This document shows positions 24,951 to 29,704 of a stretch of DNA of 64,000 nt, piece by piece. The notes beneath the pieces are model-generated. The model saw only the letters and a program-made list of their open reading frames with translations, searched no databases and was not told the DNA's origin. The translations under genes and the position numbers were made by a program. The DNA comes from Tetramitus jugosus (lineage: Eukaryota > Heterolobosea > Eutetramitea > Acrasida > Vahlkampfiidae). The stretch covers positions 310,001 through 374,000 of the forward strand of contig OW569373.1 in the NCBI GenBank assembly GCA_937625935.1, written 5' to 3'. Within the stretch, counting starts at the first letter, position 1. Every line of letters begins with the position of its first letter.

Positions 24951-26021
24951 TTAGTTAAACTCCTGAACATCTTTCATAATTTGCTGTACATCAATATATC
25001 GTGAGAAAACTTTGAGGAGTTTGTCAACCTTTGCTTCATCTTCCGAATTCATCTGGAGAAGTTCATGCTTCTTGGCACTCTGATTCTCAATCATGGGATC
25101 ATTCCTGCTCATTGCAATTGACATGCATGTTTGTTTCACGCACGTCACGTCTTGATGCTCTACGAGTCCGTGCTCCATTGGTATGAAACCGTACACCTTG
25201 ATATCACTTCTCACATGCTGCGCAAAGTAAATCTCAACATCCTTCTTCCTCTGTTCGTACAAGTCTTGAGGCACCTTGTTGAATATGACACCGATTACAC
25301 GTCGACGACGACGGAAACTACCATCGTGATCCGCAATTGTCATTCTCTGCTGTTCCTGCAAATCAAAATACTCCATATACAAACAGTTCAAATTGAACAA
25401 ATCGATCGCATTGCCCAGCGAACCACTCTCAAAATTAATAATTAACAAAACAGGTGCACTCAGCTCGTGAGCCACTCTCGCATTCGAACAACCAATGACA
25501 CTACCCACACTGGCATAACCAATTCCATCCACAATCACCCATTCACTCCTCAATGCCTCCACACTCTCCACCACCTTCTTTATTCTACTATTCTCCGATT
25601 CTCTGACCATATCGATCGACGGCATGAGTTCTGGGCTCTGTTCACGCTGCACTTCCGACGTATAACCATTGTAGTAAATGATGGGACCCATTCCAGTGAA
25701 TGGCAGCTTATGAGAGTAACAGTACTTCCAAACAGGTTGTGTATCGATGCATTGTGTGCAAGGTTTAATGTAACCAATGGGAGCTACTAGATTTTTCTTG
25801 TCATCGACTTCTGGTTGCACTTCTTGTTGTTCTTGTTGTTGTCTTTGCAGTAGCACTTGATCTCGGATCATGGCAATGAGGGAGAGGCAAATGGAAGATT
25901 TTCCACAGTGACTCTTGTCACCTGCAATAAACAATCGCAGTTGGTTCATGATGTTGGGATGTTGTTGATCAAAGTCTTCTTGTTTTTGTTGTTGTTCGTT
26001 GATCTCGGCTTTGAGCTTCAT
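24951..26021 (-). CDS. BioD-like P-loop protein (AAA_26 / dethiobiotin-synthetase fold)
   Basis: Encodes 356 aa from ATG 26021; the frame extends 4 codons farther only through a TTG. Walker A is LFIAGDKSHCGKSSICLSL (about 29-47). IGYIKPCTQCID (KPxxxG-like), WVIVDGIGYASVGSVIGCSN (about 175-195, where BioD has VEGxGGxxVP), ARVAHELSAPVLLIINF, and VIGVIFNKVPQDL plus KVYGFIPMEHGL match the BioD-like domain found at the N-terminus of long phosphotransacetylases and in DRTGG proteins. True dethiobiotin synthetase is unlikely because the protein has a Gln-rich N-terminus, an extended C-terminus and no biotin genes nearby. The activity is undefined. It diverges from the aminopeptidase gene with 88 bp between ATGs. 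Confidence 0.65.
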   Translation of the reverse strand: MKLKAEINEQQQKQEDFDQQHPNIMNQLRLFIAGDKSHCGKSSICLSLIAMIRDQVLLQRQQQEQQEVQPEVDDKKNLVAPIGYIKPCTQCIDTQPVWKYCYSHKLPFTGMGPIIYYNGYTSEVQREQSPELMPSIDMVRESENSRIKKVVESVEALRSEWVIVDGIGYASVGSVIGCSNARVAHELSAPVLLIINFESGSLGNAIDLFNLNCLYMEYFDLQEQQRMTIADHDGSFRRRRRVIGVIFNKVPQDLYEQRKKDVEIYFAQHVRSDIKVYGFIPMEHGLVEHQDVTCVKQTCMSIAMSRNDPMIENQSAKKHELLQMNSEDEAKVDKLLKVFSRYIDVQQIMKDVQEFN

Positions 26022-26109
26022 TTTCACCGCCAAATTCTAAAGCCAATTTTGTTCGACGTTTTTCGGAGTTTTTCGGAGAAGAAATAAACAAAACTCAAAC
26101 AGATTGAGA

Positions 26110-27135
26110 ATGCTGCAGTTGCAATTGGGTGCCAAAGTCAAGACGATATCAAAGCGTTTCTTTTCATGCACATGCATGCCTCGTGACAGTAATCAAGAAG
26201 AGAGCTTCAATCCACACAATCCAAATCCCATCTTCTCCGCTGGGACAGTTTCTCCGTTTACTCCGGTCCCCGATCATATTGTAAAGCCAAAGTATTACAC
26301 GACGGGACAAGCCAAATTTCATAACAAGATTCAATTGGTCAAGACTGAGGAAGAAGTTGTTGCTATGCGTGAGGTCTGTGCTCTCGCAAGAAAAACACTC
26401 AACTATGCAAGGAGTCTGGTGCGTGTCGGCATAACGACAGATGAAATTGATAGAGCTGTGTTTGAGTTTGTTGTGAGTCACAATGCCTTTCCATCGACTC
26501 TCAACTATAACCATTTCCCCAAGAGTGTGTGCACAAGTGTGAACAATGTTATCGTTCATGGCATACCGGATGATCGAGCCCTGATGAACGGTGATATCAT
26601 TAACATTGATGTGACAGTGTATCTCAATGGCTATCACGGTGATTGCAATGAGACGATATTTGTTGGTGAGGGTCATACGGAGCAAGTGAAACAATTCGTT
26701 GAAGTCACGCGACAGTCTCTGTACAATGCGATTCAAGTGTGTGGTCCTGGTGTCTACATCAATAAGATTGGAGAAACGATTGAGAATACGGTGAAACCTT
26801 TTGGGTATGCTATTTTGGAGGAGTTTACAGGTCATGGAGTTGGCAAGCATTTCCACAGCTATCCTACTGTGAATCATTACAAGACAAAACGGATTGAGGC
26901 AGGTCCGATTCAGATGTTTAAGCCTGGTATGACATTCACGATTGAACCAGTGATAAACATGTCAAGCAAGAGGTGGCGCATGTGGAAGGATAAGTGGACT
27001 ATTGTGACAGCGAATGGAGACATGTCCGCCACTTGGGAACACACACTGATGATTACCGAAGAGGGAGTCGAGGTTCTAACGGCGAATGAAGGAGAACAAC
27101 GATTCTACACACTTGAACACAACGTCAACAATTAA
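26110..27135 (+). CDS. Methionine aminopeptidase type I, probably organellar (MAP1D-like)
   Basis: Encodes 341 aa from ATG 26110 (MLQLQLGAKVKTISKRFFSC), an Arg/Lys/Ser-rich amphipathic leader that looks mitochondrial. The pita-bread domain has all metal ligands: IDVTVYLNGYHGDCNET (both Asp), TGHGVGKHFH (His), FTIEPVINM (Glu) and TWEHTLMIT (Glu). CTSVNNVIVHGIPDDR supplies the substrate-pocket His. There is no N-terminal zinc-finger region as in cytosolic MetAP1. It removes initiator Met from proteins made in, or sent to, the organelle. It shares an 88-bp promoter region with the BioD-like gene; that region carries CACCGCCAAA at 26025-26034. Confidence 0.92.
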   Translation: MLQLQLGAKVKTISKRFFSCTCMPRDSNQEESFNPHNPNPIFSAGTVSPFTPVPDHIVKPKYYTTGQAKFHNKIQLVKTEEEVVAMREVCALARKTLNYARSLVRVGITTDEIDRAVFEFVVSHNAFPSTLNYNHFPKSVCTSVNNVIVHGIPDDRALMNGDIINIDVTVYLNGYHGDCNETIFVGEGHTEQVKQFVEVTRQSLYNAIQVCGPGVYINKIGETIENTVKPFGYAILEEFTGHGVGKHFHSYPTVNHYKTKRIEAGPIQMFKPGMTFTIEPVINMSSKRWRMWKDKWTIVTANGDMSATWEHTLMITEEGVEVLTANEGEQRFYTLEHNVNN

Positions 27136-28246: not shown

Positions 28247-29275
28247 ATGACTGTCGCAGCACTGAGCTGGGATGAGCTCTCCCAGGTTCTGCTCTTTCTC
28301 CCAGCGTCCGACGTGTGTCACTATTCGCAGACCAATTCCACTGCATATGACTGTATCCTATCCAACCAAGACTTGTGGTCAGTGCTCCTGCAGAGAGACT
28401 TTGCTTCCATAATTGAACAATTGAAGCAACCACAAACAGCAGCTATGCAGAGTATCGCTGCAGCCAGCAACATGGTGGTGGATCAAGCCTGTTGTGACGA
28501 AATGAAGAATTACGTGTGCTACTACGTGCGATTTTACCAATTTCCGTTCGATCGAGTCGAAGCCAGGTCCATGTACGATGAAATGAGCAATCACACGATT
28601 TCCAAGGTTTTATTCGGTGTGGCATCCAGTCCATTGAATCTGTTGGTGATGAACACTTTGAAAAACGGACAACTCGATAAACCACAGAATGGAAACTATC
28701 CCGTGATCGGTATCGATTTCATGCTGGCGTGTATGGCTTCGAGACAGCCAAAGGTGACTCCAAACTTTACAATTCAACTTTGGCAGATTGGTCCAACACC
28801 AGAGAGATTTCGAACTATTTCAAGGGCCTACTATCGTGGTGCTCAATGCATGGTGATCACAGTAGACACTCAACATGCATGGGAAGAAGATTATTCTACC
28901 GATCATCCATACAGTTCTTACGGTCCGAATTCTTTGTCGAGAGCTCTGGCAGCACTTAAAGAGAGTCAACCAGCTTTACATCTTGTGCCACCAAGGCCTT
29001 GCAAAGGTGTGTTGATTGTTGGTGTCGGTGTTTGGTCAGAAGAAGCACCCATTTCAAAACAGAGATTCCTCAATGATTGTGCTCGAGTGTTTGATATTTT
29101 GCCTTTGGAGTACTTTGAGTTGACCGGCGATAATGCCCCAGTAATGTCAGATATTATAATGAGACGTTTTTATGCATTCCATCAACAGGCTGCTCTGGAA
29201 GATCCAGAAATGGTTTCCACTCAACCGAGAGCACAACAAGAAGCGCCTCCACAATCGAGATGCATCTTAAGCTGA
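28247..29275 (+). CDS. F-box / degenerate Rab-like GTPase fusion with C-terminal CaaX box
   Basis: Encodes 342 aa from ATG 28247. Residues about 6-46 (LSWDELSQVLLFLPASDVCH then DLWSVLLQRDF) form an F-box. Residues about 118-315 align with a small GTPase of Rab type: KVLFGVASSPLNLLVMNTL at the P-loop, YPVIGIDFML (switch I TIGVDF), IQLWQIGPTPERFRTISRAY then YRGAQCMVITVD (switch II and the RabF motifs), and FELTGDNA at the SAK loop. Nucleotide-binding residues are gone: no GKS/T, WDTAGQE reads WQIGPTPE, NKxD is absent. The protein ends SRCILS, a CaaX box suited to farnesylation. I infer a membrane-anchored SCF adaptor that uses a pseudo-GTPase to bind substrate or effectors. Confidence 0.75.
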   Translation: MTVAALSWDELSQVLLFLPASDVCHYSQTNSTAYDCILSNQDLWSVLLQRDFASIIEQLKQPQTAAMQSIAAASNMVVDQACCDEMKNYVCYYVRFYQFPFDRVEARSMYDEMSNHTISKVLFGVASSPLNLLVMNTLKNGQLDKPQNGNYPVIGIDFMLACMASRQPKVTPNFTIQLWQIGPTPERFRTISRAYYRGAQCMVITVDTQHAWEEDYSTDHPYSSYGPNSLSRALAALKESQPALHLVPPRPCKGVLIVGVGVWSEEAPISKQRFLNDCARVFDILPLEYFELTGDNAPVMSDIIMRRFYAFHQQAALEDPEMVSTQPRAQQEAPPQSRCILS

Positions 29276-29336
29276 GCAATAAGCGAATTTGTAACACAAC
29301 GTAAAATCTGGAACAAAAAGTATCTCAAAATGCGAT

Positions 29337-29409
29337 CTCCTCCAGTTGGGCTCGAACCAACGACCTGCAGGTTAACAGCCTGACGCTCTACCAACTGAGC
29401 CATGGAGGA
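29337..29409 (-). tRNA. tRNA-Asn (GTT)
   Basis: The minus strand folds as a 73-nt cloverleaf: acceptor TCCTCCA/TGGAGGA (7 bp, perfect), D stem GCTC/GAGC, anticodon loop CTGTTAA with GTT at positions 34-36, T stem GTTGG/CCAAC with TTCGAGC loop. The anticodon stem has one U-C mismatch at its top pair. Box A (TGGCTCAGTTGG) and box B (GGTTCGAGCCC) are intact. TTTT at 8-11 nt past the end (29326-29329) can terminate Pol III. There is no intron and CCA is not encoded. Confidence 0.93.
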
Positions 29410-29704
29410 ATTATGTTAATTCTCCGAATTAGCAGACGTCAGTCGAACTGCGAGAAAAGCAGGAAAAACGGGATAACATGTCTGGTGATTGGAATACGGC
29501 AACAGCCGTTATGCAGTGTGGACCACTGCACGGAAGGGCTCACCAAGTGTGAGAGAGTCCGTCATTACTGGCAATGGTGTCTCTCAGTCAGCTTTGCAGC
29601 GCTGGCCGATGAATTCAAACGGAAATAAACGGAGGTTTATTATGAGAGTTTTGAATAGAGTGGCAAGAGATTCTCAGTTGTATTCGGGTTCAGATAAATG
29701 CTGT
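29410..29704. other. Intergenic region downstream of the tRNA, no gene seen
   Basis: About 295 bp between tRNA-Asn and the 3' end of the monooxygenase. Two overlapping plus-strand frames of 71 and 102 codons have no recognisable content. It contains the 5' control region of the tRNA and the 3' end of the monooxygenase transcript. Confidence 0.3.

Follow-up and report, generated by a model that had tools for sequence, protein, structure and literature searches.

A multicopy gene family of Tetramitus jugosus combining a likely F-box, a predicted Rab-derived pseudo-GTPase and a conserved CaaX tail

The DNA analyzed here (the window) comprises 64,000 nucleotides of contig OW569373.1 of the heterolobosean Tetramitus jugosus. 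A single ATG-to-TGA frame on its forward strand (28247..29275), to which strand all parts of the gene described below belong, encodes a protein of 342 residues with the C-terminus CILS. This confirms an earlier note, made from the sequence alone, which had described one uninterrupted frame at this place. Based on the open frame, the copies in the genome, and a comparison of the long copies at their starts, stops and tails, the gene consists of a likely F-box, a linker, a putative Rab-derived pseudo-GTPase domain (pseudo-Rab), a variable tail and a CaaX box. The GC content is 40–43% in the window and 41.5% across 97 gene-rich loci. It differs from that of N. fowleri, N. gruberi, N. lovaniensis and Willaertia, with 33–37% in the Naegleria genomes, which makes the genus Naegleria of the earlier note doubtful. 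S-adenosylhomocysteinase has its nearest match in PDB 5v96 (N. fowleri), from which it is clearly distinct.

The genome (26.35 Mb, 56 contigs) was searched with the window protein, which yielded 33 matches. Twenty-two long copies, the window gene included, carry the F-box and the Rab-like part in one shared frame, which in C26b is interrupted by a TAG near residue 299. A further two copies show a frame change, which lies between residues 112 and 120 in C29 (L035), i.e., at the junction of F-box and Rab-like part, and between residues 179 and 195 in C36 (L037). Three further loci are relics (L038 at C30:52800-55200, L039 on C21 and L040 on C17). In total, 24 copies are spread over 20 contigs. 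A subtelomeric expansion is unsupported, as 7 of the 24 copies lie less than 50 kb from a contig end, compared to 5.2 expected.

The likely F-box (residues 7–47, 28265..28387) contains the positions D9, F17, L43 and W44, which are invariant across 21 aligned rows, as are R50, D51 and F52 immediately after it. In the window copy, the Pfam models F-box (E 0.048) and F-box-like (E 0.073) remain under their cut-offs. Curated F-box models match 10 and 8 of the 21 copies at E <= 0.1, the best copy reaching E 0.0018. With a mean pairwise identity of 54%, this region is among the better-conserved parts of the protein. An N-terminal F-box, as claimed in the earlier note, is likely, with weaker support than the Rab-like domain and the CaaX tail. 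No match to FYVE or SOCS was found in the Pfam scans of the window copy and the family copies, and the frame begins at the F-box. The F-box is followed by a fast-changing linker (residues 61–113, 28427..28585) with a mean pairwise identity of 34%, and of only 12% at residues 61–80.

The Rab-like domain covers residues 112–320 (28580..29206). The Pfam matches of the window copy, Roc (E 7e-4) and Ras (E 0.18), are under the cut-offs. A sequence search against the PDB returned Sec4 (E 1.2e-4), Rab30 and many further Rabs, mainly over residues 150–210 (among the best 60 of 166 matches), and the structure comparison identified the predicted fold as that of a Rab, which answers the question of a GTPase fold raised in the earlier note. 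The domain lies nearer to Rab than to Rho, Ras or Ran and retains RabF-like blocks, YPVIGIDFML in switch I (residues 151–160, 28697..28726) and PERFRTISRAYYRG in switch II (residues 185–198, 28799..28840). The GTP-binding motifs G1, G3 and G4 are present in none of the 22 copies and none of the 11 homologs. In the region of beta1 and the former P-loop (residues 116–131, 28592..28639) GK[ST] is absent, the place of its lysine (130, counted from G124) being L, M or I in all 21 rows having it. The DTAG upstream of the switch II block is lost, and the former NKxD region (residues 257–263, 29015..29035) reads IVGVGVW. Other positions of these regions are fixed, as all 22 copies share N131, V258, G261 and W263. 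Judged by its sequence, the domain is a Rab-derived pseudo-GTPase rather than a Rab GTPase, in line with the Rab-like part and the motif loss of the earlier note. The Rab-style C-terminal double cysteine is also absent, the window copy terminating in CILS. CaaX-type ends occur on some Rabs, so that the missing double cysteine is a lesser mark against Rab membership.

About 20 variable residues separate the Rab-like domain from the CaaX box CILS (residues 339–342, 29261..29272). A strict CaaX end was found in 18 of the 22 copies and 9 of the 11 homologs, and a C-x-x-x end in 19 of the 22 copies. The mean identity is 23% over the 20 residues before the box and 78% over the final four among the 19 copies ending there. 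From the composition of the family, the chance of a CaaX-like end (with a slightly wider last place) is about 0.0009 per sequence, a figure which serves only as a guide because the copies are kin. The CaaX tail, as described in the earlier note, is conserved.

Ten database relatives were identified by protein search and 14 by alignment search. All 14 are located on contigs of 0.8–2.8 kb, and the single one bearing a name is annotated as a hypothetical protein of a compost metagenome. Nine of 11 homologs contain both parts in one protein, and the two others (P0010 and P0011) begin past the F-box. A tree was built from 32 proteins, i.e., 21 own copies and 11 homologs; the F-box profile was built on 30 of these 32 rows. 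C26b was left out of the alignment A3, the tree and hhalign, and the short P0013–P0015 were left out of the tree and hhalign and retained in the structure alignment. Most homologs pair with one particular copy, the identity between partners being 89–99% in 10 of 11 cases and 58% in one. Because of this pairing at high identity, the copies are, by sequence comparison, mostly older than the split of these lineages, each having been retained individually. Spread by viruses was also considered; viral contigs contain 52 stretches fitting two peptide patterns, but no relative is encoded by any of them.

The ratio of non-synonymous to synonymous divergence (dN/dS), pooled across 63 copy pairs with dS < 1, is lowest in the C-terminal half of the Rab-like domain (0.31) and in the F-box (0.36), followed by the linker (0.43) and the switch half of the domain (0.52), and highest in the tail preceding the CaaX box (0.69). 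For the whole gene it is 0.42. The family is thus under purifying selection. The divergence at fourfold sites is similar along the gene (0.40 at residues 246–296 and 0.41–0.53 elsewhere), which indicates that the C-terminal half is conserved mostly by constraint. Gene conversion as the cause was rejected, since none of 228 pair tests was significant after correction; the pairs C20a/C20b and C1/C7 look locally converted without surviving it. Tandem copies are located at L024 (C20:424100-428400) and L026 (C26:442000-446100). Their DNA identity at residues 246–296 and 1–212, respectively, is 89% vs. 61% in the C20 pair and 97% vs. 77% in the C26 pair. This pattern resembles partial gene conversion, and the C26 pair is unlike after residue 296.

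The genome also encodes candidate ligase and prenylation machinery, with two matches for SKP1, 13 for cullin (8 of them long; CUL1 is pooled with its paralogs) and three for the prenyltransferase model PF00432 (farnesyltransferase is likewise pooled with paralogs). Furthermore, a second class of genes with the order F-box, Rho-type GTPase and C-terminal CxxX was identified (L041–L046, L050, L051, L055–L057 and L059). Pfam scans of 19 open reading frames (ORFs) found F-box and Ras above the cut-offs in six and Ras above the cut-off with a weaker F-box in 11; the remaining two are one ORF without an F-box match and one RhoBTB-like ORF. This class shares with the window family the one-frame order of F-box, small GTPase and C-terminal CxxX, but it is Rho-type and most GTP motifs are kept: the 12 F-box-Rho ORFs contain GxxxxGK[ST] in 11, DTAG in seven, and both TKxD and the CxxX end in all cases. 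The count for DTAG suggests that loss of G3 has begun in some of them. Additional N-terminal domains are kelch repeats in L043 and L044 and a 2OG-Fe(II) oxygenase in L041. A descent of the window family from this class is unsupported, as hhalign gave 0.3% for the GTPase profiles and 3% for the F-box profiles.

Rab- or Ras-like domains without a CaaX end occur in L052, L065, L064, L062 and L053, each with a weak F-box match, and in L061, in which Pfam found no F-box. In L052 and L065 the NKxD motif is replaced by TGKDLK. Descent of the window family from these genes has weak support, with 51% for six of them and 37% for L052, L065 and L064 alone, compared to 96% for plain Rabs. The F-box hidden Markov model of the family ranks L052 first (E 0.0013) in a sequence set which was chosen for fusions and is therefore biased. 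An older fusion common to the window family and these genes may have existed. Based on the sequences, this genome appears to have fused an F-box to a Rab, with subsequent loss of the motifs and multiplication of the family, and separately to a Rho. In addition, L060 (C29:356400-359500) is RhoBTB-like, with Rho and BTB matches and the end CSIM, so that BTB-type and F-box-type GTPase adaptors coexist in this genome.

Euglenozoa are close kin of the heterolobosean amoebae. Their protein TbFRP consists of FYVE, F-box and a Rab18-like GTPase and has no CaaX (PMC3593210). Like the window family, it has an F-box followed by a Rab-like GTPase within one protein, but it is described as a GTPase, starts with FYVE and ends in VLLD, whereas the window family has no FYVE match, a CaaX box, lost GTP motifs and 22 long copies. 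The authors of that study did not find an ortholog in N. gruberi (PMC3593210). The statement of the earlier note that no family with exactly this order had been described thus needs qualification: TbFRP and the F-box-Rho-CaaX class are close, although TbFRP has FYVE and lacks CaaX. F-box GTPases may already have been noted in the small-GTPase supplement of the N. fowleri genome paper, which cites a review on F-box proteins as well as work on RhoBTB (PMC8296547). In the literature searched, mainly titles and the beginnings of abstracts, no work joining pseudoGTPase, F-box and Rab was found, and the present family is undescribed in the excerpts covered, including those of Willaertia papers and PMC13236570.

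Fusions of small GTPases with cullin-ligase adaptors are already known. Rab40 ubiquitylates its own effectors via the Cullin5 ligase CRL5 (PMC10509765), and Rab40C and Varp provide a further precedent for a Rab40 ligase (PMC4359733). As in the window family, a Rab domain is fused to a cullin-ligase adaptor module, but this is a C-terminal SOCS box which uses Elongin B/C and Cullin5 rather than SKP1. The Rab40 proteins are Rab18-derived in bilaterians, with at most four members in primates, and are described as GTPases. RhoBTB3 combines an atypical Rho with Cul3 and CaaX and is located at the Golgi (PMC4931677). The RhoBTB proteins likewise fuse an atypical small GTPase to a cullin adaptor, but differ by Rho, BTB, Cul3 and the GTPase standing first, and are represented in this genome by the separate L060. 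In FBXL2, CaaX puts an F-box protein on membranes (PMC9141697). It shares the F-box and the C-terminal CaaX with the window family, whereas its substrate domain consists of leucine-rich repeats, its end CVIL is geranylgeranylated by geranylgeranyltransferase III (GGTase-III), and a GTPase part is missing.

The window gene may belong to a family of prenylated substrate receptors of SKP1-cullin-F-box (SCF) ligases in which the pseudo-Rab acts as the reader, a proposal to which about even chances are given. The tail would be farnesylated, as can be assumed because X is mostly serine, and would anchor the protein to a membrane, while the F-box would recruit SKP1 and a CUL1-type cullin. Since loading with GTP is presumably impossible, the pseudo-Rab would be locked in one conformation and would show a switch-like face to proteins that read Rabs, i.e., effectors, guanine nucleotide exchange factors (GEFs) and GTPase-activating proteins (GAPs). 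Ubiquitylation of these partners would then take place at the membrane in question. Differences in targets between the copies would stem from the more variable switch half, and the conserved beta5-alpha4-beta6-alpha5 half would serve all copies as a docking or structural face. Such a system would be an analogue of Rab40-CRL5, in which own effectors are brought to the ligase, working via SKP1 and without a GTP switch. The membrane-tethered SCF receptor of the earlier note is compatible with the conserved parts and with the gene content of the genome, each of its steps being deduced. Many-copy pseudo-Rabs under purifying selection offer a test of whether a nucleotide-free Rab fold can read substrates, and of whether membrane-bound ubiquitin-ligase arrays police vesicle traffic or intracellular microbes in free-living protists.

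A turnover in cis seems unlikely; in this case the pseudo-Rabs would act at membranes as regulators or competitors with a short life, and the F-box would do no more than destabilize them. Auto-ubiquitylation is common among F-box proteins, which counts for this explanation, as does the F-box being weak by sequence. The authors of the TbFRP study also considered that its F-box may couple to rapid proteolysis of TbFRP itself (PMC3593210). On the other hand, the F-box is one of the better-conserved parts by dN/dS and identity, and a family of 22 long copies that vary in the switch half would resemble a set of readers rather than a single unstable regulator.

Still less probable are integrated decoys, pseudo-Rabs which would mimic host Rabs and trap switch-gripping effectors of intracellular bacteria or viruses at the vacuole membrane for ubiquitylation. 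A multicopy family with relics, whose switch half changes faster than the F-box and the C-terminal half, is consistent with this, and without GTP motifs the bait would not respond to effectors of the GEF or GAP type. However, there is no sign of positive selection, dN/dS being below 1 in every region, and contig ends show no accumulation of copies (7 of 24 vs. 5.2 expected). Among the Foldseek and VIA rows, several are Rabs gripped by bacterial proteins, which shows only that Rab faces get targeted. By the same reasoning, and with similarly low probability, about two dozen membrane-anchored SCF receptors imitating different host Rabs could serve immune or trafficking surveillance in a protist, trap anything that grips the switch regions of Rabs, bacterial effectors from inside the cell included, and ubiquitylate their catch on the vacuole; the F-box-Rho-CaaX set would do likewise for Rho ligands.

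It is very improbable that an old F-box-Rab fusion was duplicated and is now drifting without function. The GTP motifs are gone from every long copy, and two frame-changed copies, three relics and the TAG-cut long copy would agree with decay, but 22 long frames are open, dN/dS is 0.42 over the gene, the CaaX box persists while the preceding tail varies, and single copies have near-identical relatives elsewhere (89–99% for 10 of 11). Finally, an annotation artefact of two adjacent genes read as one frame can practically be dismissed. In its favor, C29 shifts its frame right at the junction (residues 112/120), its two pieces being too close together for an intron. However, 9 of 11 homologs hold both parts, and a chimeric model, a possibility raised in the earlier note and checked here on genomic and protein sequences, is contradicted by 22 long copies that keep an unbroken frame across the junction, against this single shifted one.

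The window gene is flanked on one side by a metallopeptidase M24 gene (26104-27135). About 60 bases beyond its stop, a tRNA-Asn (gtt) was predicted by ARAGORN on the reverse strand (29336-29410), which is the sole tRNA listed by this program in the window. Additionally, a nucleotide-binding protein of the CbiA/AAA_26 type, which resembles CobQ/CobB or dethiobiotin synthetase, is encoded on the reverse strand at 24951-26033.
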